The notes beneath the pieces were generated by a model that had not been told where the DNA came from, did not search any database, and worked only from the letters and a program-made list of their open reading frames with translations. DNA of 64,000 nucleotides, taken from NCBI RefSeq assembly GCF_022201045.2, contig NC_068564.1, positions 33,447,001 to 33,511,000 on the forward strand, in the 5' to 3' direction. The position numbers were made by a program, and so were the translations under genes. Position 1 is the first letter of the stretch, and every line of letters starts with the position of its first letter. The DNA comes from Citrus sinensis. Taxonomy: Eukaryota > Streptophyta > Magnoliopsida > Sapindales > Rutaceae. Positions 7,136-64,000 of this stretch are shown piece by piece.

Positions 7136-10100
7136 ATGTTTGATTGTGGTTACAAATCGTATTATATGGATGGCCAGCAAGAGAAGTTTGTCAGGTACCA
7201 TCTAGGTTTGGACTTGGATGTTCACAAAGGACAAGAGAGTTAAATTTATTCCGATGTCTGATGTTTTGTATTTGGCAGATTTGGCCTTGGATGTTTGTGC
7301 AGGACTAGAAAGTTAAATTTTATTCAGTTTTTTGAATTTTGATGTTATTGAATTGATTTGTCCAGGTTTATGCTGAAGAACCATGGATATTAAATGTTAG
7401 CTAGATTAGTGAATTGGTGATCACCTCGGATGCTAAACTTCTAAACTACATTTAATTGAGTTTCATGCTTTCTTTAGTTTGGGAGTGGACCAAGACATCT
7501 AGTTTCTTAACTCACTTTGTAATACAGTTTTCAGAATTTCAAGGTTTTTCCCCCTAAAGATAGGAGGGTGGACAAAGTCTAAATCAATTTTTTAGTCTCC
7601 TTCATATCCCAAGATTTTAACTGGAGTGGTCAGGTAAAGAAAATTGCTCGAAAACCATTCAGTCAAGTCCATAGAGTCAAAAATTGGATATTGAATGTTG
7701 CCCTCTATTCTAATTTCATGGATAACGCAAATAAGTTGCCTTTCTAGATTGGACACTGTGTATCATGTTACCATAAACTTGCTTTGATGAATTTTCCTCA
7801 TCTTTATTTTTTATATCCTAATATGAATTTCAGAATTTAAACATTTAAAGGAATCTAATTTTTTTTTTTTTTTGGGGTTTTGTCTTATCACTTTTCTAGG
7901 TTGGATGACTTGGACTCTAGATTATCGTCATCTTCTGATACAGGAGTGAGAAGATGTGGATTCAACGTCGAGGGATTAAGTCGAACTGGTCATGCCAGCA
8001 ATACAACATCTTTCAAGAGAGGAATTAGGAAGGGATCTGAAGGACTTAAGTCAATTGGTCGATCACTTAGATTTGGGGTTTCTAGGGCTGTATTTCCAGA
8101 AGATCTTAAGGTGTCAGAAAAGAAGATATTTGATCCTCAGGACAAACTCCTCTTGTTCTGCAATAAATTATTTGTAATATCATGTATTCTGGCAGTATCT
8201 GTGGACCCACTATTCTTTTATCTTCCAGTCATCAATGATTCATCAAAGTGTCTTGGTATAGATCGAAAGTTGGCAATTACAGCTACAACATTGCGTACAA
8301 TTGTTGATGTTTTCTATCTTTTGCACATGGCTCTACAATTTCGAACTGCATTTATTGCCCCATCATCTCGGGTTTTTGGACGGGGTGAACTTGTAATAGA
8401 TCCTGCACAAATAGCCAAGCGATACATGAGGCGGTATTTCATCATTGATTTTCTAGCTGTGCTCCCCCTACCACAGGTTTAAAACATCAACCTAATGTTT
8501 ATTAACTTCAAGTTTGTGTGCTTTGTTATTGTCCCGACGCAATTCACTTCAACTTTTTGCTTTGTATTAGTTTCTTGTATTTGCTGTATGTTTGCCTAAC
8601 TCATTTTTATTTTTATTTTTATTTTGTAGTCCTAGATCTACAAGCATGCATGAGCAGTATGCTAGTTTTCTTTATATACTGTAGTCAACTCAGTTTTTCT
8701 TATTTGCCTCATTTCTTATTTGGCTTATGGGACTTCAGTTGCTGAAATCAACATTGGTACTTGGTAATCTAAAAGTATATGTAAGGGGATTTTTAGTTTC
8801 TTTTAGTTTCCTCTGCAGCTATTTACAATATGGACATCTATATTTTGCTGATCTACGCAATCAGTCTTTATTTGTGGAGGAGATGCTTGTCTTTATTATC
8901 AATTATTCCACCAAAGTTCATAAATTAATAAATTGATATGCACACTGGATAATAACATTTATAGCTTTTTGTTTCTTCAACCACAAGCAATTAAAAGCAT
9001 ATAATCCATGCATTCTTGGTTATAGCTTAAAATTGATTATTTCCTTTGTTTAAGTGCCATGTTCTCCTCCACTTCCACACCTTCATCTGTTGGTGAATAA
9101 CCCATGATTGATGTTATGCTTTATCACTTTAGACTTGCATGTAAATTAGGAAGTCACTGTTTTAAGTCTCTAATATGTTGTGTTTAATGTTTTCTTTCCT
9201 TCTTTACTGGAATGTGATATAGTTTTAATTTTAACAGAAAATATCTCTGGAAATTCTTCGCTTCATGCTGCATACTTGTTTATTCACATCCAATGTTGCC
9301 ATGTAACACATATTCATTGTTAAATTCAGAAGTGTGGTGACAAACAGCCCTTTAGCTTAATGGCATTACTGTATCATGATTTTGAATTTTGTAGGATGTC
9401 AATAAATGTCTGTTATAGCTTTCTCATTGGCATTCTTTTTCATTGAAAATTGCAGATTGTTGTTTGGAGGTTTCTTCTGAGATCAAATGGTTCAGATGTC
9501 CTGGCTACAAAACAGGCTTTATTTTTCATTGTTTTGTTCCAGTATTTCCCCAGATTTTTTCGTATCTTGCCCCTAACATCAGAGCTGAAAAGGACTGCAG
9601 GTGTCTTTGCTGAAACTGCTTGGGCTGGTGCTGCATATTACCTGCTGTTATACATGCTTGCCAGTCATGTAAGTCCCTTTTCTTCCAGTTTGGCATCCTT
9701 GTCCGATTAGAAAAAGCTTCTTCATTTATTTATCTTTGCTCGCTTTTGTGTTCATTTATTGGATGCTGTTTGATGTGATTTTTCTTGCCACTTCAGTTTC
9801 TGATGTATAAATTTTATTATATATTATAATTTCCTTCTATCCTTCTTTTTTGACCTTGGGTTTTAATAACAGACATACAGTTTTGATCTCTGATTAGTGC
9901 AGGCGATTCTGCCATCTCTTTAAATCTGTCATCTTTCTGGTTTCCACCGTTTTCTTACATCAAATTGTTTATTTTTAGCAGATGCCAACATGTATTTTTA
10001 TCTGAGGGGAAAAATTTAATGTAATTTTGGATGATATTTTGCAGGTAGTTGGGGCATTGTGGTACTTATTAGCTCTAGAACGCAATGATACTTGCTGGCG

Positions 10101-13100
10101 GAAGGCTTGTAGCGTGACTGCAAATTGTACTAAAGATTTTCTGTACTGTGGAAATCAAGATATGACAGGTTATGCTGCCTGGCACGACATCAGCAATACA
10201 ACACTCGAGTCGAAGTGCTCAGCAGATGAAGATGATCCACCTTTTGATTTTGGTATCTACTCACAGGCATTGTCATCTGGCATAGTTTCATCTAAGAAGT
10301 TTTTCTCCAAGTACTGTTACTGTTTGTGGTGGGGCCTGCAGAATTTGAGGTAATAGAACTTTTGTCCATCAAGGTGCTACTTAATTTATATGTATTAATA
10401 TCAAGTGTCAGGCACTTAATTTATATATGTTAATATTAAGTGTCAAGCATCCTATATTTGGCTTGGAAGATGTAGTTTCACTTTCCTGACATGTTGTGAG
10501 GTCCATCTTGGAAGGTCGGGGGCTTGTCCTAGAAATTAAAGCACTAAAATTGCTGTGTAGGAAGCAATATGATTTGGGCACAATGATTGTGGGTAGCGAA
10601 AGTATTAGTTCTGCAAGTCTGAGAGAATTAAATTTGCCAGGTCCTGTAAGCTGCTACTGTGGTGAGGGATGCAGATTTCACTTTGGTAATGAAATTTTTA
10701 CCAGTGAATTAAAAAAAAGAGGTTTTCATTTCTCTTTGTGGAAAGGGACAGAGTTGGTTGAACAGAGCTTCTTTGCAATCCAACATGACCATGGCTTTAT
10801 TAAGTTTTCAGCTATCAGTCCCAAGTGGCAGATTCATTGTTCCAATCTTTACCTCCAAAACAACTCTTCCAAAAAGCCTCTAGAAGACCTAATTGCTGCT
10901 GTCCTATATTGTGCCTGTGTTGTCTTTATCTTATGTGACTGAATTATGATGATTTGTTGTTGTTTGCAAAATATAACAAATGTGGCTTTTCATCTTTATA
11001 CATAATCTATTGCAAAGTAATGCATTCAACAAACCTAGTAACTGTTGTACAGGGTTGCACTTCTTGCAGTTCATCACAATAGTTGTAGTTCTTTGTTTTG
11101 GAAAATTTTAGTTAACTTATTACCTGAGATAACTTGGCAATGTTATGCAAAGTAGAAACACCTACTATTTTGATCTGAAGTCAGAATATATCATGCTGAA
11201 ATTTAAGTATTAATTGTTCTCCCCCCCCCCCCCCCCCTTCCCCGGCGCCGATTTCTCTGCAGTACACTTGGCCAGGGGCTTCAAACTAGCACATTTCCTG
11301 GAGAGGTCATATTTTCCATAGCACTAGCCATTTTTGGTCTCATTCTCTTTGCTCTTCTGATTGGCAATATGCAGGTAAATTCTTCACTGACATTTGGATT
11401 CATTTTGTCTTCTTTCTCAAGTGTTGTAACTGGCAAAAATTTTGGACATAATTTATTATTGTACATCTGAGACAGCTGAAGCTCTTGTGAATTTTATGCG
11501 TGTTTATGAGTTGATTATAGTGGCGTTGAATCTAGTGACTACAATCCCTGGCTACAAATTGATCCCAAGAATTGCACTAAGAAGACTTGATTTCTGAATA
11601 TCTGGCTATAAGATGAATATATTCTCTTAAGAGTTGTGTAAATGTATAAGCAATTACTTAGTTTAGCTGATGCATGCTTCGATCATATTAACTGATTCAA
11701 TGTGCATTTAAAGATAAGGTGGGACAAGAAGTTAAACTGGCAGGGATCATGCTTTCTTATGATCTGAGCATGTAGTTTGTTCTTCAATTGAATAATCATT
11801 CACGTCTTGTATAGTGTGGGGCTATTTTATTTATAATTAAGGGTTTCTTCTAATCCATTATTGAAATTTATAGGATCAAGCAGGGTAATTGTGCCAAAAT
11901 TCTTACTTTTCCTATTGTGACAGACCTATCTTCAATCTTTGACTATTCGACTCGAGGAAATGAGGATCAAAAGGCGTGACTCAGAACAATGGATGCATCA
12001 TCGCTTGCTGCCACCAGATCTCAGGGAACGGGTAAGACGTTATGACCAATATAAGTGGTTAGAAACACGTGGGGTGGATGAAGAGAATTTGGTTCAAAGC
12101 TTACCAAAGGATCTGAGGAGAGACATCAAGAGGCACCTCTGCTTGGCTTTGGTTAGGAGGGTAAGTTAATTTGATTTTTTTCACCACTTTTTTCTGTCAT
12201 TATATTTCTTCTTTTTCGCGTGGTGATAATGATGTTGTTTGTTGGTTGGTTTTATTACTGTTTCACATTGCTCCTTTTGCAAACAATTTGCAGCTAAAAG
12301 TTTTCATTAATCGGTTTGCATCATAGTGCTCCTGCTTATTGCTCACTGTAAGTTGTAGAAATCTTGAATGAATCAATGGAAACATGTTATCCCTGAGGGG
12401 ATAACCTAGTTGGGTTGGCCTTTGCAGTGGAAGCTGGAGGGATCGATTCCCCCTCACGCCAATCTTGGGGTGGGTAGCTTTAATTTGCGTTTGTGCATGG
12501 GGTAGGGTGGGGATAGGGTATGTGACAAAGAAAGATAAAAAATTAAAAAATTAAAAGCATGCTCCATCTTTTTTAAAAACACAGTACTGTGTTTACTATT
12601 ATTATGTAGTTTGGGTAATTTATGCATATCTGAATGATTGAAAGTAGGGAAATATTGTTTATTGATTTCTGTTGATTGGTTTAATTTTCATCAGTTTTCA
12701 AATGAAAATCATACCGTATGCCGAAGAGATGCACTGTGTCAAAATGTTTGGTTAGGACATGATTGGACTGTCTTGTGAAAGTATGGATACATTTTGGTCA
12801 TTGGCTTACTAATTATCCAATTGCTTTGCACTCTGCATGTTCTGCCTTCTCTTCAAAATAGTTTCTTGCCAGTTCTCATGTAGTTGGAAGTTATGAATTG
12901 CTTTGTTGGTGTTCTATAGGTACCTTTATTTGAGAATATGGACGAGAGGTTACTTGATGCCATTTGTGAGCGCCTGAAGCCATGTTTATTTACAGATAGC
13001 ACTTACATAGTTCGAGAAGGAGATCCAGTTGATGAGATGCTTTTTATTATACGCGGCCGCCTTGAAAGTGTAACGACAGATGGTGGAAGGAGTGGCTTCT

Positions 13101-13624
13101 TCAACCGCGGTTTTCTGAAAGAAGGAGATTTCTGTGGCGAGGAGCTTCTAACTTGGGCACTGGATCCCAAATCTGGTGTTAACCTCCCATCCTCTACCAG
13201 GACAGTGCGGGCTTTGAAAGAGGTCGAGGCTTTTGCCCTAATGGCCGAAGAGTTAAAATTCGTCGCTAGTCAGTTCAGGCGTCTTCACAGTAGACAGGTT
13301 CAACACACCTTCCGATTTTACTCACAGCAGTGGAGGACTTGGGCAGCTTGCTTCATACAAGCTGCATGGCGTCGTTATTCCAAGAGAAAGAAAATGGAGC
13401 AAACACGGAAGGAAGAAGAAGAAGAAGAAGAAGCATCAGAAGGAGTCCAAAGCAGCAGCACAGGTGGAGGTTCTTATAGCATTGGTGCCACCTTCTTAGC
13501 TACCAGGTTTGCAGCAAATGCACTTCGAGGGGTACATCGAAACAGGAATGCTAAGAGTGCTAGAGAGTTGGTGAAACTACAGAAACCTCCAGAACCTGAT
13601 TTCACTGCTGAAGATGCTGATTAA
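7136..13624 (+). CDS. CNGC: Cyclic nucleotide-gated ion channel (CNGC5/6/9 clade)
   Basis: Plasma-membrane cation channel of the plant CNGC family, typically Ca2+-permeable and controlled by calmodulin and cyclic nucleotides. Exons are 7136-7194, 7900-8476, 9456-9668, 10045-10349, 11263-11374, 11924-12160 and 12920-13624, giving 735 residues with every junction in phase. The ATG at 7136 opens a short exon encoding MFDCGYKSYY, which joins to LDDLDSRL as in Arabidopsis CNGC6. In order there are the cytosolic N-terminus, six membrane segments (exons 2-5), a pore with WWGLQNL at about residues 378-384, a C-linker (exon 6), and a cyclic nucleotide-binding domain (from about residue 502) with the GEELLTWAL cassette. 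An IQ-type calmodulin site follows (CFIQAAWRRY, about 645-654), then a Glu-rich tail. Introns carry a 17-base poly-C tract and a SINE-like insert. Which member of the clade it is remains uncertain. Confidence 0.93.
10380..10450. repeat. Short tandem repeat in CNGC intron 4
   Basis: A unit of about 35 bp (ACTTAATTTATATGTATTAA followed by TATCAAGTGTCAGGC) occurs twice in a row with a few changes. It lies just after exon 4 and has no visible coding role. Confidence 0.6.
11221..11237. repeat. 17-base poly-C tract in CNGC intron 4
   Basis: A pure run of 17 C followed by a GC-rich stretch ends 25 bases before exon 5 begins at 11263. It therefore lies inside the pyrimidine tract that precedes the 3' splice site. 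Confidence 0.9.
12395..12540 (+). mobile_element. SINE-like (tRNA-related) insertion in CNGC intron 6
   Basis: GC content rises sharply within an AT-rich intron. The segment has an A-box-like AACCTAGTTGGGTTGG near 12406 and a B-box-like GGATCGATTCC near 12440, about 35 bases apart, as in RNA polymerase III promoters of plant SINEs. An A-rich end near 12530-12555 fits a SINE tail. I could not identify target duplications, so the ends are approximate. Confidence 0.45.
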
Positions 13625-15028: not shown

Positions 15029-18000
15029 TCAATCAATCTTTACTGACGAGTAGATAAGCCTCGTGAACCAAAAGCAGGCGTAGAAACCAATTGTACCAGT
15101 AAGCACAAAGAAAGCATATGAGGCGATCAGCATATACCCGAAGTACAAGATTCCAGACACCGGCTTGCTGATCTCAAGCTTTGTGAAGAAATAAAAAGCA
15201 GCATAGAGGAACAGATAGAGTGCTGAGGAACCTGAAGTCAGGTAAGATCTCCACCACCAAAGGTAATCCTCACTGCATAACTGGAAGTAACAGAGCACAA
15301 TTGTGATCTCAGCACATGTGACAATGAGAATCAGGAAGACAAGCAGGAGGAAGCCAAATAGGTAATAGAACTGATGCAACCATATTGAGGTGAGAATGAA
15401 AAAGAGCTCAATGAAGATGGCTCCAAATGGAAGTATGCCCCCAATTAGGATAGAGAAGATGGGATTCATGTACCAGGGCTGCTCTGGAATCTGTCTTGGG
15501 ATCTTGTTGGTTTTCACAGGATCCTCAATTGCTGGCTTTCTAAAACCAATATAACTACCCACAAAGACAAGTGGGACAGAAATGCCAAACCATAAAAAGA
15601 CCAGAGCAAACATGGTTCCAAATGGCACTGCACCAGAGGATTTCTCGCCCCAAATTAAAGCATTTAGGACAAAGAAAATGGCAAAGCAAATTCCAGGGAA
15701 CATGAAAGCTGTTTTGAGAGTGATTTTCTTCCACTCTGTTCCTTTGAACATCTTATAGAGACGAGCAGAAGCATACCCAGCAAGTAAGCCCATAAATATC
15801 CAAACCAGGAGCATGGCCGTCATTAACCCACCTCTATTTGAAGGAGAGAGGAAACCAAGAACAGCAAAGATCATGGTAACAAGAAACATTCCAAAAAACT
15901 GAACACCTGTCCCAACATAGACACAAAGTAAATCTGAATTTGCCGGAGGCCTGAATACATCCCCATGGACTAGTTTCCACCCAGTCTCTTCCTGAGCTTC
16001 TTCTTGAGTTTCCAATTGGTTGTACTTGGAAATATCCCGGTAAAGAGTACGTAACATTATCATAGCAACCATCCCCGAGAGAAAAACAACAATCATCAAA
16101 GAATTAACGATTGAAAACCAGTGAATCTGATCATCAGCCATCAGAAGATAGGTATCCCAACGAGATGCCCACTTTACATCACTTTCCTGCAAGGTAAGAC
16201 AATGGGTAAGAATTATTAAGAAACAACACTGTCATACAACCATACAGGCACCCAATACAGTGTCAAGAGATATAAGACCTTACCTGGAACTCCACATCAT
16301 ATGTAAATATAATTTCCTTCTTATCATCAACTTCTTGAGGAGATTCAGAGTTGGTAACAGCCCTTTTTGCATGAGGATCACAGGTTGTTAGACGCGTCTT
16401 CTCACTCCAATCACCTTCATACTCATGTTTAACACTGGATTCACCAAAATGCGTCAGTATCAATACACATGCATAACTGCCACCGACAAGAGAAGTTAGC
16501 ACACATTCGTACAAGGAGATGATAAAAATGACCTGAATGGTTTGACCTCAAATCCTACGATCCTTGATGTTTCTGCCTGAGGATCTTTGTGATACTTGAC
16601 GGTGAACGCCAAGTGGTTGTGGATAAAATGCTTTTCTTCTTTGCTCTGAAAACAATTTTAAGTACAGAAAATTATCAAATTGTTCAACAAATTTTTTGAT
16701 GTTCCAAATAGATACAGATCACATACCCCAGCATACTGTCCTCTGAGACCAACACGAAATCCTTGTTGATAAACTATACCATTTTCCTGATCAGGTCTCC
16801 GAATGGGAACAACCAGAGGAAGGTTATCCAAGATCCTTTTGTAAATACATCATAAATCAAAAGATTATTCCATAAACATCATAACATTTTGCTGTGTACA
16901 CAAGAAAGAAAAAAATTAAATTTTAAAGTCACTGAATAAATGTCTCACATGTTCACCCGATACTCATCGTTTATCTTTTCCTTAAATTCGTCGGCAGTTT
17001 TCTTATTAAGCGTTAAACGACATACAACATTGCACATCAGCGGTTCTCTCATTTTAAACTGCAAAAGATAAATTTTGTCAGCCAGTCAACCAAAAACAAA
17101 GAAACAATGAGTAAATTACTTGAGAAACATAAACTTACCACATAAGGAGAGTTTTCAATTCGATCGCCACGAAGAACTTCTCCAAGATTTTCTGCACTGT
17201 CAACTATACGCTCTGGTTTACAATAAGGGAGGGAATAGTAGGAGTATGGAAGTTGTGTTTTTGTTGAGGTCAGTTTGTTCACTTTAACTTTCAACTCATC
17301 CCCCTGCATCAGTGCAAAAGTGTAAAAGCCACAAAATAACTTCATGTCATCAGAAAGTACTCGGTCCAAGGTCAGACAAAAATGATGCACAAAAGAAAAA
17401 CACATTGGAACAGTTCAACGCTTTTCACATATAGAATATTCACCATTTACAGACACTATTCCAATGTGGATATAAGCCAGTTAACATGAGCAAGCAGCAT
17501 GGGATGTAATGATATTACACATTACATGTACAAGAGGAGCACAATAGTGCCTTTAAAGTTCTAAGCAATATGGCACAATTGTATTCAAGTGTGAGGACTT
17601 ATGTTAGTTACCTCTTCAAGTACATATTCAAATAGTATAAGCTTTGATGGTAAGTGTGCTTAATATGCAAGACCTAACCTGGGTTCAATTCCAATTACAT
17701 CTATAATTCTAAATCGACCATTTACTTTCTAAACTACAAAATTGCCATTAGAACAAGTGGAATCACAAGCAAGTCCAATTCCAACAGAATGAGCCTGCTG
17801 CTTTACAATTGATCTACTAGCACCCCACTTAATCAATAGATTCAAAGCAATCGTGGGTATAGTCTACGCAAGATTAAAGTATCTCTCAACTAGATCACCA
17901 CTAAGACACTTAATGTAACGGATCCAAGAGAGTCGTGGTAATTCGTTCAGAAAGCTCAACTGCAAATTCAAAGTCACAACAGAGCTTCATCTCATGATTG

Positions 18001-21982: not shown

Positions 21983-24981
21983 TTAGTTTTCTTCTTGAGT
22001 ACTATTTGGTTGTTCAATCACTCTCACAGTACGAGGAAGTATAAATTCAGCAAATATGGGATAGTGAGAGGACGGATAACACCCATCAATGTTATCATTC
22101 ACAACTTCACACGAACCAGGAATCAGAGATCTACCTCTGAAAAGAATCCAGTCAATGTGTAGATCCTGTGTCTGGCGATCCCAGCAGAGGCAGAGTGCTC
22201 TAAAAATCAACTTGAGAAATTCAAGAGCTCCTTGCTTGTTACCTAACAAGCAGCAATATCAAACAATAAAGATAGGCTACGGTGGTTATATCATACTAAC
22301 AAAGCACCCAAAAAGTTGAGAGTGATAACCTTTGAATCCATGATAGGTGCGTATGAGGGAAACATTTTTCCGCATCCGAGCATTAGGCCATGCATCTCGC
22401 ATGTCTCCCACTACACCATGTTCCCTGCAGGCAATGCATAGACAGAAGGCAGTGGCAATCCAGTCAGCGCCATATCAGCTGTCAGACTGAACTACATATA
22501 TTCCCCTCAAACTAAACTCTGGGGAGTTGCATTTGGATTTATCTAAATTTAAGTGCATGTATGGAAAGAAAATGTGTCACACTTAACACTCTATTGTTGG
22601 GCAATATAAAATGCTTTAAACTTAGAGAACAATGGAATTTATTTTTTCACTGTGGTGAAATCAATTCCTTCAGCTAAAAGGATATGTTTTAGAAATGTAG
22701 AACAGAATCAATGATCCTCAAGTTTGCAATTCTTTAAAAATACTGCTAAAGTTTGCAATTCTTGAAAAAAATGCTGCAACAGCATCTGGATATCATTTCT
22801 GCAAATTTCATTTCCTCCAAACCAACAGAATCAGAAGTTCCATCCTAAAGTCCAAGTAAAACTTTTGACTGAAATAGGCATTTTTGGAGATGATTTTTAT
22901 TTGAATAAATATAGAATCCGAGTATCCAACTTGATTTGACACAATATCTTGTTCCCAAAATCAGAAATCGAAGGAATATCTTTGGGCAAGTTGCCCCAAA
23001 AGAAAATAAATAAATAACTAAAAAGGAGAAAGAGAGAAATGAAGTCCCAGGAAAGACTAAATACCAAATCAGCTCTAAGCATCTTCCATGCACAACAGAG
23101 CGCAGAAAAACATTATCAATGGTGGATATGCTAAAATAAGGACAAGGGCCATTGAGATAGAAATAAAAAATTAAAATGTTGAGTTCAGGTTGAAACTCCA
23201 TAGATAATATGGTGGGCATTGTCTAGAAGGATAAAAGAAGACAAAGGGAACAATTATTTTTATTAAAAAGAAAAATAGCTACATTAATATATACCAAAGA
23301 ATACCTTGATCTCCCAAGAAGAAAACGTCCTGTAGTTGATTCCTTCTGTGTGTTGAATCCACCACAGTATATAACTGGCAAACTAGGAGGTAAGGAGGCA
23401 ATGTGCTGCCAAGTAAGTAAAGCACTTCGTCTGCGGGCACGTGCAGTAAACTCATCCATGTTCGTATTCACTATTTGAAATGAAAATCCTGGCGGTTCAA
23501 CTCCTTTCAGTTGGAATGTGTGGGCATCATGTCAAAGAAACAAAACAAGCAATGCTCTTCTGTAATATATAATGTTCAAAACTGTTTATTACAACTAGCA
23601 TAATGGTAATAAATGCCTTCTCCACCCATGTGAGAAGGGTACCAACCTCGGACCTTATACCAACCCAAGAGATTTTACTAGTTGAACCACTGGCACTCAC
23701 ATATGACGTTAATAATTTATAAGAGCAAAGGATTTCAGAAAAGACAGACAATTTAAGTTGGTGAAGTAAAATAGGAAGGATATAGCCCAAGTAGCAATAC
23801 ATGGAACTTCAGCACCCCATGCTTTACTTCCAGGCACAGAAGGTGACTCTGACAACCAAAAGGTTCCACCTTCTAGCAGCTCTACCTTCATTTAATATAA
23901 AAGTGGCGTTAAGGCAGACTGGCAGTACCAATCTTTTGACAAACAAAATTAGAAAACTCAGCCAAATTGGCCCAACAAGTAGATATAGTACCTTTTCCTT
24001 GTCATAGAAGATGGTGCAATGTTCGTCTGAAGTGTCTTCAGGTCCTTTTCTTGATACTCCAAATTGATCATAGGCTAGATCATAGTAAAGAAGCATTGAA
24101 TACAATAAAATTAATCAGGTTTAGGACGCGATGGGAAAGGAGTGTTTGGTCATTTCATACATAAGAAGTCAACGTTTTAAATTCCCAACAAGCTTAAACG
24201 CTAAAAGCCCCATTACTTATAATATTACTTCTGCAAAAATAGAAATCATGTGTCGTTAAAGGAATAAAATCTAAGATATGAAAAGTACTAATGTTACTTC
24301 GAATTGCTTCTCTTGTGTATGTTTTGCACATTAGCTGAAATTTTTAGCTCCAAATATCTGAAATTCTTGACACTAGTATCTGAACTTTAATAGTACATCC
24401 AAATACTTCAACTATCAGTACAAATCTGAAATTCAGAAGTAAATCATCAAAGAAAAAAGTTACCTGGCAAACACTGCTGAAGATAATCCAACTGTGATTT
24501 AACACCTGAACCATATAGAAAGTGTTTAATTAATAACAAAAATACCATCACCACCAATAGAAAAAAAATGCTCAAAATATCATCTGAAACAAGCTGAGAT
24601 CAAGCATTTCAGATAAACAAGTTACCAAAACAAAACTAAAGTTTAAACAATAACCTATTAACTGGCCATACATTCCAGTAGCAAAACTCAACTACATCCT
24701 AAAATAACAAAATTCCACCTCCAAAACACAAACCAAGAACAACCCAGATCGCCCATTTCATCAAAAGAACAACCCACAAGCAAGATCCGCAAACACAACT
24801 ACGTATATCAAAAGATAAAAAGTGGAAACAAAATAGCACCTTGTTGAGTACAAAGAATCATAGGAGAGTAACTAGTGATGACACTTATACATAAATCTCT
24901 CCTCTTCACCCATGAATTTGGACTATCTTCTTGTTGATCTTCATGAAGATTAAAAGTCATCAAAGACAATGCAACACTCAT
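21983..24981 (-). CDS. Endonuclease/exonuclease/phosphatase-fold protein (At1g11800-like), degenerate active site
   Basis: Member of a plant branch of the EEP superfamily (DNase I/CCR4-like fold); its substrate is unknown. Minus-strand exons are 24981-24840, 24505-24464, 24074-23992, 23885-23784, 23519-23305, 22424-22330 and 22242-21983, giving 312 residues with every junction in phase. Motifs follow the EEP order: MTFNL (Asn11), CTQQG (44-48) where LQE is usual, YDQFGVSRKG, VNTNMD, YCGGFN (174-179) where GDFN is usual, TYHGFKG (about 221-227), HIDW with Asp257, and SSH (284-286) where SDH is usual. Thus the metal-binding Glu and two Asp positions are changed while the fold is kept. The intron between exons 4 and 5 is of the U12 AT-AC type. 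An 80-bp tandem duplication lies just upstream of the start codon. Confidence 0.88.
23520..23783 (-). other. U12-type AT-AC intron in the EEP gene
   Basis: On the minus strand the intron begins ATATCCTTCC, an exact match to the U12 AT-AC donor consensus, and ends GCCCAC. A branch-site match TTCTTTGAC lies so that its A is about 12 bases before the AC acceptor. Splicing here joins ATWA to TFQLKG in frame. No GT-AG alternative nearby keeps the frame. Confidence 0.88.
23596..23712 (-). mobile_element. Possible SINE remnant inside the U12 intron of the EEP gene
   Basis: Read on the minus strand it has an A-box-like GTGGTTCAACTAGTAAAATC and about 35 bases on a B-box-like CCGAGGTTGGTACCC, followed by a GC-richer body. 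This resembles tRNA-derived plant SINEs. No tail or target duplication could be fixed. Confidence 0.35.
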
Positions 24982-25061: not shown

Positions 25062-25221
25062 TTGATTACCACCAGAAAGTTAAAAACTTAGAAGAGATTT
25101 CTATCTTCCAATCTTGACAGCTGAGATCAGTGCTAAAAACGTTGATTACCACAAGAAAGTTAAAAACTTGGAACAGATTTCTATCTTCCAATCTTGACAG
25201 CTGAGATAAGTGTTAAAAATG
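25062..25221. repeat. 80-bp direct tandem duplication upstream of the EEP gene
   Basis: Two copies (about 25062-25141 and 25142-25221) share TTGATTACCAC, AGAAAGTTAAAAACTT and GATTTCTATCTTCCAATCTT with only a few differences. The spacing is exactly 80 bases. It sits about 80-240 bases upstream of the start codon at 24981, in the presumed promoter or leader. Confidence 0.9.
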
Positions 25222-30900: not shown

Positions 30901-32451
30901 CTCTTTACATTTCTCAATGTCCAAAATAGTGGCAGAGAGGACATCACTGTACATGGAAGCAACCTTTGAAGCCTCCTCCGCCAGTACCGCTGTAGCATAG
31001 AATTCAATCCATACAAATTAATTCAAAGAATTATCTCCAACTGTTTGAAACAAAAAAAAAAACTATCGGCCATCAAAATGCCAATTGACAAAAACAAGAT
31101 AAGCCAGTCAAACTACTTGATCAATCACAAGGACAACACATTTATAACTGACCACAGCACAGATTAACTGCAAGAAACAAGATTAAATTTATCATGAAAA
31201 AGAAAAAATATAGCACATACGAACCAGGGGTAAGCACATTGGCAGGGGAATTCACAAGCTCCCTGCCAAAAATCACAGCTGAAGAAACATGTTCAGCGTA
31301 CTTCAGCTTCTTTTCTAATTCAGGTCCTGTTCCAAGTCCAATAATGTCCACAGACTTGAGTGATACAGGTTTCTTTGACTCAGACCTATACCGATTATCT
31401 TCAAATGTCCCCAAAACAGTTCCTATCAAAATTTAAATCATTCCACCAAAAATCAATTCCACTTCTTTATGCAATTATACTGCATATGTAAGTTAAAAAG
31501 TCAGGAAACTCCTAAAATAAGTACCAGATGCCACTGCCGAAGCAGCAGTAAGCTTTGATTCATCTGAGAGACCGTCAGAAGAGGCAAGCACAACAGCAAC
31601 GTTGCTGGCTTGAGCAGCCTTTGCAGCCGCAGCAACAGACTCTCCAAGACTGCGAAAGTCCCCGGCCCTTGAAGCTGACTGGCCTAGACCAATCAAGCCT
31701 ACCCTTTTGGAGCCAATGCCAGGGAGTCTAATAACAGTTGACTGGCCAGCTTTTCCAGTGAAATCCTCCTCAGAAGAAGCTTCAGATAAAAGACCGCCCA
31801 ATTGGGCATCTAGCTTTTTCAAAATTGAGTTCTGGAATTTTGAATTATCATCCTTGCCCATGTCTTTCTCTGTGACACCCACTGCAAGTATATCACCTTT
31901 CCATTCCACCACATCAACCTCTTTTGCGGCAAAAGAGATCTTCCAAAACGTTGTCAACAGAACATAATCAGTATTTCAAATCAATCTCAAGTGAGCAACC
32001 AGACAGTACCATGTAGCACCCGCTAGATCATTATTATCTTTTTATAAATATATAGATATAAACTCGACCAATCAAATCATAGAAATATTTGTTAAAAAGG
32101 AAAAAACCTATGAACAACAATTTTGAGGCATAAATTAAAAACAGATCTAATCACAAAGCCACTAACATTAACTATCACGTAAAAGAACAAGAGGAAGAGA
32201 GAGAGAAAAGAGGGGACCTTGAGAGGGTCGATTTGAGCAGGCTTAGTGAGGCCAAGAGTGGCACGAGCAATAGAGTGAGCCATCCTGAGCTTTCCTCTAC
32301 AAAACAACAAGGGTGGTGGTGGTGACGGCGCACAATAACGTCTAAAAGCAGCTGCAGATCCTAATCCTAATTTCGAGAATAACAAAGAAGACGATGATGG
32401 TGAAGAAGACCAAGAGAGGCAAGTCGTCAAAGATACGACAATGGCGGACAT
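27956..32451 (-). CDS. LAP2: Leucine aminopeptidase, chloroplastic (peptidase family M17)
   Basis: Hexameric metallopeptidase that removes N-terminal residues (Leu, Met and others) from peptides. Ten minus-strand exons: 32451-32218, 31939-31525, 31422-31225, 30989-30764, 30441-30315, 30198-30103, 29711-29634, 28901-28841, 28558-28371 and 28084-27956, giving 583 residues, all in phase. The first ~55 residues are rich in Ser, Arg and Pro, like a transit peptide. The M17 catalytic domain has GKGLTFDSGG (Lys352, Asp357), KYDMGG (Asp377) and the signature NTDAEGRL (435-442; Asp437, Glu439, Arg441), so all metal ligands and catalytic residues are present. Met57 opens [15 protein letters not shown], which aligns with the start of cytosolic Arabidopsis LAP1 (MAHTLGLTQP). 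A TATA-like box lies only ~30 bases from the first ATG. Function is firm; the paralogue number is a guess. Confidence 0.94.
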
Positions 32452-45733: not shown

Positions 45734-48700
45734 TCAGCAAGGCTTTATTTCAAACCCGATGCTCAGAAGAGTTCGAGCTGATTCCATTGCCTTCTCACCT
45801 CCAAGATCCATGGCCGCACCAGCCAATTCACCTTCTGTTCTGACTGACCACTGGGTTGAAGTCGTTTGGTTTTGGACTGCATCCGTTTTCTTCAATTGCA
45901 AATTGTTCATGGAAGCAGGAGCAGCAGCAGCCACTAGAGGAGCGCTTGGAGGGCCGTGTCGCTTCTTAGGCACGGGCATGTCATGGTCATGTACTCCTTT
46001 GTAGGTTATAATGACAGCACTTGTGTTATCTACAGCTGTCTCAATGTGCTTACGGACAGGGCATCCAGCAGAAGTGCATCTATAATAGTTCCTAAAAATT
46101 TTATTGAAGCAATATATCAGAGGAAAATTAAGGACAGTATCCATTTAAATAGAAAATGACAACTTGAATTACAAGAAAGAAAAAAATGGTGAGGCTCACA
46201 GCCATTCACCCAAGGCAACCATGTTAATTAATATTAGGCAGGTAGGTATCAGCAACAACTGGTTTTATTGCGGGACAGCTCATGATGTTCGTATCGATCT
46301 ATTATGTGCCTCTGCATCTAGCATTGGGTAGACCGAATACAATAACTGTCCTAGCTCCACCGTATCTTTTGTTTGACAGGTGCATGTGAACCCAAAGCAG
46401 TAAAGCAAATGCAGCTGGGTATCTTTTTGGAGAAAATTCATAAAATGGTCCAAGGTTGTCATAACTTTTAAGCAAAAGGCAAATCTTAACATGATTTACA
46501 TCCATGATCCCCATAGTTTCTAATGATAACTTGTGGTTCCAACTGTTTTCACATCTTTTGCCGCTAGATTTTATTACAGGAGGAAGCGATTAGGAACTAG
46601 GAGGGCAAAAAGGCATAACATATGTACTAGCAAGGTTGCTGGGATTACACCTTGCCAGGAAAATTTTAAGATTTTATCTGCCAGAAAACTTTTAAGATTT
46701 TAAGGAAGATCACAACATGATGTCAATAAAAGGCATTACTAGGTGCATAATGACTTTCTCCAAAATGTCATACTATATGCACGACAACTTTTTCAAAAAT
46801 ATCTCAATTATTAGATTTCAGAAATTTTCTACATTTGTTGAATTCTATTACAAGGACGCTTCTTCTCATTGTCCTATAAATCCAGTATTGGCCATAATCC
46901 ACAAGAATGTTGAAAACCGAGTGTGGTAGAGTAGGAGGCCTGCCTTTCAAAATAAAATGACACATAGCACTGCCATTAAGAGAATTAAAAGTCCTTAGCA
47001 AGATCCATGAACCTAGGTGTCGCATCTGAAATAGTCAGAACTCCCAAAAGAGCACTGCATGAGATTTTTCCTTCTCTCATGTTTTGACTGACATTTTTCA
47101 TTCTAAGATACCAATTACTATAATCAAAGTTATTTTAAGAATCAACTTAAGGAAAAAAATAAGACGGCAGCTAAATAAACATTGACTACAGAGTAGCATA
47201 ACGATTTAATAGACTAAGAAACACCAAAACTAGAAAAGCAACAAAGGGAAATGAAGGAATAACCATGCACCTTGGATTCGGATTTCCCTTCACCATTTTC
47301 TGTCCATACTTGCGCCATCTGTATCCATCACCTGAAATCCCCACATCACCTGCTGCATGCACGACAAATTTAGGTTTTTTGCCTGGTTTTAAGAGAGGGC
47401 TTGAATTTGCTAGGTTGTCTTTCTTCACTCTGTTCAATGAAACAAATGAAGAACCATCAAAACCAGATTATCACAGATATCATCTTCCCAGTCCATATTA
47501 AAACAGTAACAAAAACTAATTCCAGAGGAAACTTGCCTTCGCTTTGGCTCTGGTTCACTCGGATGCTCCTCCTTAACCGAGACTTCGCCATCCCCAGCAA
47601 AGCTACTTAAGTTTGGCCGTTTTCTTTCAGGAACTAAATTTGAGTCTCGTACAGAATCTTTTGAAGATGTTGATGGAACTGAATCGTTAAGCATCCTGAG
47701 GGACTGTTCTGTAATGTTATTCCCTATAACAGGTCCAACAGATGATATGAGCCTACTTTCCCTCACACAGTTATTCTTTCTAGGTGGATCATGACTGTGC
47801 ATGCCTTTATTAACAATCTCTATAACATGACCTGAGTGATCAGAACATTCAATCTTTTTAGCACAACAATCAGAATATGTGCACTTGTAGTAGCTTCGAG
47901 AACCTTTAGGACTCTTAACTTGTTTTTGACCATATTTCCGCCAATTGTAACCATCAGAAACAGGTGTCTTCACAATATGAACAACAGATACATTTTTCAG
48001 CTCAGAAGAGTTTTGCAAGTTTGCTTCTGGCACAGATGCAGTATCAACCTTTACAAGTGACAGGTTTTGTCCTGTTAAAGTTGGACTTGGAGCAGATGAT
48101 ATAGGTTCTGTAACAGAAGTAGGTGATAGCTCAGATAAGGATGTTGGGCATATGGATGGCTGAAGTTGATATTGTGTCTGAGATTCAGCAGCCTGGACCG
48201 CTATACTTCCCGAACCTTCATGTTGAGACACCTCAACCTGCTCCTAATAAGGATGAAACAGGAAATAACTGATGAAAAGAATAATAAGATCGGGAAAAAA
48301 ATCAATGCACAAGCCACCGGATTGGCTTGTAAACATAGTTGGAGTTTCCATTTATATATACTTTACCTAAATTATTGAAGATGCATCTAAATCAATGCTA
48401 AACATGGCATGTGGAGGATGATGAGTGTGCCTCATGACCAATCCATGGCATGGCTTATGCAGTTATGACTTAGAGCCAACATTTATAATAACATTCAGCT
48501 CGCTCAGAATAGGATGAGAGGTGCACGCCTCACACGCATTTAAAAATAGGTTTCTCCGAAAAAAGCATTAGTTAGTTAGCATATGCCCATTTTCTTTTCT
48601 CACTTCCAAAATACATAGTACCAATAGAGTAATAAAATGTGCTGAATTCAAAAGAATATGAAAGCACATACAAACATCAATGCCAAAAACAAAAAAAAAC

Positions 48701-51388: not shown

Positions 51389-53483
51389 ATGCAGCCTCTG
51401 CTCGAAGGAGGTTAGTTTTCATTAAAAAAAAAAAAAAAAAGAGAGTAAGCTTACTGTCACTTTGATTCAATTTTAACTATATTTTGTTTGAAACTGTGAA
51501 TACTTCAAAGCAAAAACATTTTTTCTCTGTTTGGTTGCTGAGGAAGTGTTAGGAAAATAAAAGAATCATGTTTGTATGTATATATTGGCAGCCAAGTCAA
51601 AGTTGTATTTTGGAGTTAAGCTTGTGAATTATGCAATCGTTGTAGCTAAAGTAATGAAATTTGTTGACTAATTGGCATTAGAATTACTGAATCGAGAGAT
51701 TAATTGTTTCTGTACTCTCTTTATTTATTTTGTAGATTTTTATTGAGTATTTTGATTCTTTTTGTCAAATCATTTGGGTAATCTTTGAGTTTGATGATCT
51801 CCGTGACCGTGAGAAGGGACTTAGAGGATTATGAGACGGGACTATTTTTGATAACAGGAAGCTCGTTTGATTATGTTAATTATGTTGTGCGTTGCTCAGA
51901 GACGACTGATGATTGATTAGTTATCATTACCCTATTTGTCAATTCTCATGGTTGGATATGTGATCTGCACAGTGTTCTCCGTCCGTATCTAGATTTTGTG
52001 ATATGGATTTATGGTTAATTAGCTCTAATTTTATAGGAGATAACTTGTCTTTAAGTGCTTTATGTGATATCTTTTGCCCTGATTTGAAAAGCTCACTTAA
52101 CTCGTAGGAAAATGCTTGCCGCTTTTTTTTTTCTTTTTTTTTTCAGTTGGACTCAAAATTGTTAGATTACTGTTCAGCTGTCAATAGATCATATTAACTG
52201 AATGTAAACGGTGCCATAAATCATTCGTAGTTCGATAATCTTTACAAACCGAGGAAAGGTGTATGGTGCATACGTTGATCTGCTTAAGATAAGAGTGTTG
52301 CAGATGTGTCTGGCTAGAATAGACCAATATCAATGCATCCTTTTTTTATGAATGATTTTGATCTTTGGGTTGTTTTTTATTATTGTCTTATGAATACTGA
52401 TATCTGATGTTAGGGGAAATAATGGACGAGGTGTCACCAATGCCTTCTGTTTCATTATGGGACCGGATTTCCAATTCAAAGACCTTGGCTTGGGAATCAT
52501 ACAAAAGAAAACCAATCTCCCATTGGATTCTTCTAGTGTTGAGCAGTGCAGCAATGCTTGTAGCATTTCCTGCTTCGAGCCTTCTATCTCGGGTCTATTA
52601 TGCCAATGGGGGCACAAGCAAGTGGATCATTTCATGGGTTGCAGTTGCTGGGTGGCCTTTGACTGCTTTGATCTTGCTGCCTACATATTTCGTATTTAAA
52701 ACCTTTCCCACTCGTCTTGACTTAAAACTCACTCTAGCTTATATTGTCCTGGGTTTTCTAAGTGCTGCGGATAATCTCATGTATGCATACGCCTATGCCT
52801 ATCTTCCGGCATCAACTGCTGCTCTTTTGGCATCATCATCGCTAGTTTTTTCCACCCTATTTGGTTATTTTCTAGTGAAGAATAAACTGAATGCTGCAAT
52901 GATAAATGCTGTCGTGATAATAACAGCTGCTATGACTATAATTGCACTGGATTCAGATTCTGATAGATACGGCAACATTACTGACAGACAATACATCATG
53001 GGTTTTGTTTGGGATATCCTAGGATCTGCACTCCATGGTCTCATCTTTGCCCTTTCTGAGCTAGTTTTCGTGAAATTAGTAGGCAGAAGGTCCTTCCATG
53101 TTGTATTGGAGCAACAAGTCATGGTTTCTTTGTTTGCCTTTGCATTTACAACTATAGGAGTCGTCGTGAGTAAGGATTTTCAAGGTATGAAATCCGAGGC
53201 CAAAACTTTCAAAGGTGGTGTAGCTTCGTATTACCTGGTTCTCATATGGGGCGCAATTACTTTCCAGCTGGGGGTGTTAGGAGGCACTGCCGTGCTTTTT
53301 TTGGCTTCCACTGTGCTGGCAGGCATCCTCAATGCAATAAGAGTACCCATCACAAGCATTGCCGCTGTTATATTGTTACATGATCCAATGAGCGGATTCA
53401 AGATCCTATCACTGATTGTTACGTTCTGGGGTTTTGGTTCCTACATCTATGGAAATTCTTCTACTCCCAAAGATTCTTCTTGA
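51389..53483 (+). CDS. PUP5: Probable purine permease (PUP5-like)
   Basis: Plant purine permease of the drug/metabolite transporter superfamily; members carry purines, cytokinins and related bases across membranes. Two exons: 51389-51410 and 52414-53483, joined in phase, giving 363 residues starting MQPLLEGGEIMDEV. A shorter start at the internal Met (52423) is possible if the first exon is only a leader. The protein has about ten hydrophobic segments, the conserved WISWVAVAGWPLTALILLPT, LGFLSAADNLMYAYAYAYLP and FLASTVLAGILNAIRVPITS, and matches Arabidopsis PUP5 as I recall it. Nearly all coding sequence is in one exon, usual for the family. Substrate cannot be told from sequence. Confidence 0.9.
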
Positions 53484-62449: not shown

Positions 62450-64000
62450 TCAAATGTCTTTAAGAAGGCCAACTATCTGCTGCATGCTGGGACGCTTCAA
62501 AGGAAGATCGGCCGTGCACAGATATCCAATCTTCAGAGCTTCTTCCATTTGTTTTTCAGGCCCCGTATCACGAATCTTTGGATCAATAGCTCTTGATCCT
62601 TTGTTGTTTCTTACCAATCCCCTAACCCAGCTCACCAAATTTCCTTCTTTCTCCTCAGGATAATCATCGCCAAGTGGTTTCTTTCCTGTAATTAGCTCCA
62701 ACAGAACCACACCATAGCAATATACATCAGACTTTGGTGTTGGGAAGTCGGAGTCAGGCTGAGCAAATTCTGGGGGAATGTATCCTGGTGACCCACGAGC
62801 AATTTCTTCGTCTAAACCATTTCCAAATATCTTAGCCAATCCAAAATCAGATAATCTAGGCTCCAAATTCATATCCAGATAAACACTGCTAGCTTTAATA
62901 TCCCTGTGAATTATTGGTGGCGAGCATCCATGGTGAAGAAACGCCAGTGCTCGTGCAGTGCCGAGTGCTATTTTATGTCGGAATCTCCAAGTTGTTAATA
63001 ACCCTTCAGAACCTACATTTTGTATACTATTAGTACCATCTTCTTCCCATGTATCTGTGCTCCAATCCTCTGTAGTTTGAACCCCAAGTGGCAAGTCATG
63101 AAGCAAATTTTGCAGGTTCCCATTTTCCATGTAGTCATAAATAGCAATCCTTTGATCCCCAGCTATACAGTATCCAGTCAATGGAACAAGATTTGGGTGT
63201 TTAATTCGACCAAGATACTCAAGCTCTCTTGCAGCTTCTTGATCTGTTAATGTTGATCCATGGACCAAAACTTTCACAGCCACATGAATTCCACCAGGTA
63301 GAAATCCTCTGTACACGGGTCCAAATTTCCCTTCAGCCAAAAGTGTGCCTCGATCAAAATTTGACGTTGCAGATAAGAGGTCTGCAAATGTGATATTCAA
63401 CAATGGTTTCTCAAAAATTACTACCTGGACAGAATTTGCATGCTTAACATCCGCTACCCAAGTAGTTGAATCAGTCTGGAAAGAAAAGGGGCCTGAAACA
63501 TTTTGCTCCTCTTTATAGGAGGTTTGCTTTACAACCCACCTTTTGGGTTTCCTTCTACAACCAAAGGCTAGACACAGCAAGCCAGCAAGCAAGCAGAACA
63601 TTGAGAGAGTTAAAGCCAAAGCAAGCTTGAGCCCTTTGTGATTAGCTGCTTTTCTTTTGAAGAAGGAAGGATTTGCGGCAATCGGGCAGTCGTTTGATGA
63701 TCCAAAGAAGGCTGTTTGTAGAGTTTCAGGCGATAACTCAGAAGCACAAAGGGTTAAGTTGTTGTAAGAGAAGTTGAATCTTTCCATCTGAGGAAGTTTT
63801 TCCAATAGGGAGGCAGGAATTTCCCCACTCAAATTGTTGTGCGACATATCAATGATTCCAAGATTTTTAGCACTCACCGTAGGAATTTGGCCAGTAAGAT
63901 GGTTCATGGAAAGATCAAGTGTACGCAAACTGCTCAACTGTAAGATTTCACTAGGAATATCACCAATGAGACTAGTTCTGGACAAATTGAGATGTTCTAA
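62450..64000 (-). CDS. LRR receptor-like kinase (At2g24230-like), 5' part beyond the window
   Basis: Plasma-membrane receptor-like kinase. The frame is open from the right edge ([14 protein letters not shown]) to the stop at 62450, so the N-terminal leucine-rich repeats lie outside. Visible parts in order: the last LRRs ([30 protein letters not shown]), a membrane span ([20 protein letters not shown]) followed by basic residues, then a kinase domain. The kinase has AEGKFG in the glycine loop, VAVKVLV (ATP-binding Lys), HRDIKAS (catalytic Asp) and DFG, all the main catalytic residues. The first loop glycine is Ala. The protein ends ...GLLKDI, some residues short of the KDIEP tail recalled for the Arabidopsis homologue. 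No intron is present in this part. Confidence 0.93.

Follow-up and report, generated by a model that had tools for sequence, protein, structure and literature searches.

The window, a contiguous stretch of 64,000 nucleotides, carries on its minus strand a gene of the EEP (endonuclease/exonuclease/phosphatase) family. The coding sequence runs from 24981 to 21983, is divided into seven exons, and encodes 312 amino acids without any internal stop codon. The fourth intron of this gene is very probably of the U12-type AT-AC class. The exons, and the predicted intron with its signals, are located as follows.

24840..24981, minus strand: coding exon 1, with the ATG at 24981
24464..24505, minus strand: coding exon 2
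23992..24074, minus strand: coding exon 3
23784..23885, minus strand: coding exon 4, ending in ...CIATWA
23520..23783, minus strand: intron 4, very probably U12-type AT-AC, 264 nt, phase 0 (from signals, frame, and homology)
23775..23783, minus strand: putative 5' splice site ATATCCTTC (from the motif)
23531..23539, minus strand: putative branch site TTCTTTGAC (differs from TTCCTTRAY at one position; its branch A lies 12 nt from the final intron base)
23520..23521, minus strand: putative 3' splice site AC (from sequence and frame)
23305..23519, minus strand: coding exon 5, starting with TFQLKG...
22330..22424, minus strand: coding exon 6
21983..22242, minus strand: coding exon 7, with the TAA stop

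Upstream of the ATG, an 80-bp unit is repeated twice in tandem (25062-25219, 93% matches), probably within the 5' UTR or the promoter. Several other coding segments were recognized in the window. Ion-transport and cyclic-nucleotide-binding segments on the plus strand (7880-8482 and 12938-13624) are perhaps parts of one cyclic-nucleotide-gated channel gene. Two WRKY domains on the minus strand, about 1.7 kb apart (45734-46144 and 47434-48231), perhaps belong to one two-domain WRKY gene. Additionally, matches were found to EMP70 (15029-16192, minus), the N-domain of M17 aminopeptidases (31493-31957, minus), a purine-permease type transporter (52407-53483, plus), and an LRR/protein kinase (62450-63985, minus).

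The sole Pfam match of the 312-residue protein at E ≤ 1 was PF03372, with 32.6 bits against a cut-off of 24.5. A phmmer search against the PDB gave seven matches at E ≤ 1. Four were bacterial-type EEP chains (3g6s, 3mpr, 4c1r, and 3l1w; 3mpr and 4c1r are apparently one protein), with E values from 3.7e-28 to 1.1e-16 and alignments running through the junction of exons 4 and 5 in every case. The remaining three were PDE12 chains at a non-significant E of about 0.06. An earlier note on this DNA had placed the gene in the EEP family, and both the domain score above cut-off and the bacterial EEP structures agree with it. Throughout the genome (299,734,781 bases, 11 contigs), six matches to the protein were found among the best candidates scored, all of them its own exons. 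At the search sensitivity applied, the gene is present in a single copy.

Bacterial and archaeal genomes were scanned for relatives of the protein, and the best 80 of the 579 listed were used. As the spliced plant protein formed the first row of the search alignment, the selection of these 80 was not blind to the gene model. Viral contigs were scanned for more relatives as well; 298 stretches matched the pattern and none of them was a relative. Compared with the best 80 of the 579, in all of which the corresponding residues are E, H, D, and D, the plant protein has Q47, N143, G177, and S285. Furthermore, position 146, a histidine in 74 of these 80 relatives, is a glutamate in the plant protein. 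N11, Q46, N179, D257, S284, and H286 are invariant in the 80 and are retained. We take the replaced and the retained positions to be residues of the EEP active site. The pattern suggests that the protein encoded at 21983-24981 (minus) is a pseudoenzyme, in which catalysis would have been lost and the fold kept.

A tree of 81 rows, comprising the plant protein and the best 80 of the 579 relatives with eukaryotic relatives left out, was evaluated unrooted. The plant row and ten others were split from the other 70 (99/97), the ten being seven Pseudomonadota, two Cyanobacteriota, and one Thermodesulfobacteriota. By path, a Sphingomonas is the nearest row to the plant protein, which sits on a branch of length 2.4. 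Because of this long branch and the lack of eukaryotic relatives, the tree decides neither for nor against gene transfer.

The replacement of four residues that are invariant in 80/80 of the bacterial relatives (best 80 of 579), together with the branch of 2.4, could also be read as the mark of a decaying gene or pseudogene, for which splicing of the segment would be irrelevant. Such decay is highly improbable. No stop or frameshift interrupts the 312 codons of the seven exons, the splice sites are intact, the Pfam domain scores above its cut-off, and a bacterial structure is matched at E 3.7e-28.

Intron 4 starts with ATATCCTTC and ends with ...TTCTTTGACATGATGCCCAC. Its donor ATATCCTT matches the U12 5' splice site RTATCCTT at 8/8 positions. 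The consensus of U12-type branch sites is TTCCTTRAY, and TTCTTTGAC fits it at eight of the nine positions. The coordinates 23520-23783, the donor, the branch A at 12 nt, and the AC end, all of which the earlier note had described, were found base-exact in the sequence. The note's further statement that the frame is restored exactly from ATWA to TFQLKG holds too: the join is in phase 0 (...CIATWA/TFQLKG...) and lies in the uninterrupted coding sequence of 312 amino acids. Unspliced read-through of the intron would run into a TAA after 24 codons. When the same donor is joined to an alternative AC two bases further on (23518), the product is out of frame (lengths of 264 versus 266 nt). The remaining introns of the gene, which had been called GT-AG, are so in 5/5 cases in the model.

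Counts of the motifs in the window were considered as a proof of the intron and rejected, the donor and composite counts being at chance level. ATATCCTT was observed three times (3.86 expected) and RTATCCTT four times (6.42 expected). When 64-kb sequences were simulated, 136 of 200 contained a composite of the donor, AC, and a branch site deviating at no more than one position; the mean was 1.7. The window itself contains two such composites, ending at 23520 and 23518, both of which use the intron 4 donor; only the one ending at 23520 preserves the reading frame. Since the motifs alone are insufficient in 64 kb, the junction was tested independently of them, by homology.

Residues 119-128, which span the junction 123/124, were covered by the aligned segment in 80/80 of the relatives and were ungapped in 68/80 (best 80 of 579 in both cases). 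In the other 12 of the 80, all gaps start at residue 125 or later, and none lies at the junction. For the scoring of joins, a profile was built from the 80 bacterial relatives alone, with the plant protein left out. All 5296 in-frame, stop-free joins between donors at 23870-23691 and acceptors at 23640-23431 were scored with it. The AT-AC join 23783/23520 reached 234.5 bits and rank 5 of 5296; the best join was 0.7 bit higher (235.2 bits). Five further joins lay within 1 bit of the best join and 13 of the 5296 within 2 bits, and the other AT-AC pair, 23781/23518, scored 0.7 bit below 23783/23520. Homology thus fixes the junction to a precision of a few bases only.

Within this range, the splice signals single out one join. 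A perfect donor combined with a branch site at 9-16 nt that has no more than one mismatch occurs in 3 of the 5296 joins, and only one of the three, that of intron 4, has the AC end. Among the 13 joins that come within 2 bits of the top score, the AT-AC join alone has both the perfect donor and such a branch site. At densities of 3.1e-5 for the donor and 1.6e-4 for AC with a branch site, the chance of finding both on one of 13 joins is about 7e-8 if they are independent. It is this coincidence of the U12 signals with the boundary set by homology that makes the intron call significant.

The same scores bear on the use of a GT-AG intron by the major spliceosome, with the AT-AC signals present by coincidence. 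AT-AC motifs alone do arise by chance in 64 kb, and 21 in-frame, stop-free GT-AG joins are available in the tested range. The best of these 21, however, reached only 224.2 bits (rank 522 of 5296), 10.3 bits below the AT-AC join, and would retain intron-derived residues and lose TFQLKG, so that this explanation has next to no probability. Removal of the AT-AC intron by the major (U2) spliceosome deserves equally little credence: major-class AT-AC introns exist, but the accessible part of the source describing them (PMC2831892) gives them a G at position +5, where intron 4 has a C, and the donor (8/8) and branch site (8/9) fit the U12 class.

Loci for the RNAs of the minor spliceosome were found in the genome above the respective Rfam cut-offs: two for U6atac (90.7 and 79.4 bits), one for U12 (91.1 bits), and two for U11 (74 and 54.7 bits). 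Each of the best U6atac, U12, and U11 loci is preceded by an RTCCCACATCG element, at 65-78 nt, and by a TATA-like stretch, at 30-33. An element of the RTCCCACATCG type is presumably the upstream element of plant snRNA genes. The second U6atac locus has GTCCCACATTG as its element at 66 upstream and no TATA match. Together, the elements of these four loci fit RTCCCACATYG. At the second U11 locus, both the upstream element and the TATA-like stretch were absent on inspection. The U12 locus includes ATGAGTAAGGAA. Pairing of U12, U6atac, and U11 stretches with the branch site and the donor was predicted, with no shuffled control.

A candidate for U4atac (C1:23532198-23532346) scored 35.8 bits, below the Rfam cut-off of 53. 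It has ATCCCACATCG, an element of the type seen at the other loci, 80 nt upstream, no TATA match, and the stretch AATTTTTGG, which we take to be Sm-like; extensive pairing with U6atac was predicted, again with no shuffled control. The laxer search that yielded it also matched 11 of 14 prokaryote controls, none above the cut-off, so that the candidate's score is hardly informative by itself. All three matches to exons of the CCDC84/CENATAC family were above the cut-off (best 118.7 bits). The default-threshold RNA and family searches matched 0/14 prokaryote controls and were run with no positive control.

In summary, we assign a probability of about 0.95 to the reading in which this plant EEP-family gene has a genuine U12-type AT-AC intron of the ordinary kind at 23783-23520 (minus). 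Its basis is the sequence signals, the reading frame, the homology across the junction, and the minor-spliceosome RNA genes; the class proposed in the earlier note is backed by the first and third of these. The transcript is very probably spliced at 23783/23520 by the minor spliceosome. The intron 4 donor would pair first with U11 and then with U6atac, and TTCTTTGAC with U12, the branch A staying unpaired. The minor spliceosome would then join codon 123 (GCT) to codon 124 (ACA). The outcome is a gene model for the locus, and the case illustrates how homology allows a U12 AT-AC intron to be called without transcripts.

The origin of the intron is a separate matter. The protein could be a bacterial-type plant protein with a dismantled catalytic site, its gene having entered the plant lineage from bacteria and acquired the AT-AC intron afterwards. 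We consider this unlikely and put it forward tentatively, since the tree, without eukaryotic relatives, is indecisive on the bacterial origin. Large U12 intron gains have occurred in the slime mould Physarum. In the genomes compared in PMC2831892, a single clear-cut case of U12 intron gain is given in the portion of that paper at hand. If true, the gain would be a rare one, located inside a pseudoenzyme whose expression would depend on the minor spliceosome.

With respect to Arabidopsis, At1g11800 presumably shares the EEP superfamily, in the broad sense, with the Citrus protein, which may also resemble At1g02270 and At5g54130. The sources describe At1g02270 as an uncharacterized calcium-binding protein and give At5g54130 the name of a calcium-binding EEP family protein; a Pfam scan of the Citrus protein gave no match to an EF-hand. 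At1g11800 had been named in the earlier note as the orthologous gene, which is unsupported. In the available parts of the sources, it is listed as TDP2 (PMC10118267), and a TDP2 domain with one RanBP2 zinc finger is described (PMC7154859). No RanBP2 zinc finger was found in the Citrus protein by the Pfam scan, and none of the seven PDB matches at E ≤ 1 was a TDP2-named structure.

The bacterial EEP proteins 3g6s, 3mpr, 4c1r, and 3l1w share the domain with the plant protein over residues ~4-185, contiguous across the intron site. Whereas the bacterial relatives keep E, H, D, and D, the plant protein carries E47Q, H143N, D177G, and D285S. These replaced active-site residues in a still recognizable EEP domain are more worth pursuing than the intron.

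AT-AC introns had been called a small minority, which is borne out by a share of 0.06% of plant splice-site pairs in the section available of PMC6310983. In the accessible tables and text of PMC7367187, 269 U12 introns of Arabidopsis are counted in IAOD and 26% of the Arabidopsis U12 introns are AT-AC (Table 2), and for this reason the subtype is well known. Intron 4 shares with the plant U12-type AT-AC introns the donor, the branch site near the 3' end, the AC end, and a host with minor-spliceosome RNAs. The sole difference found is phase 0, which is less common among minor introns (~22% on average, as given in the part of PMC10639083 at hand) and counts against the assignment. As an intron, intron 4 would be an ordinary member of a class that has long been known.
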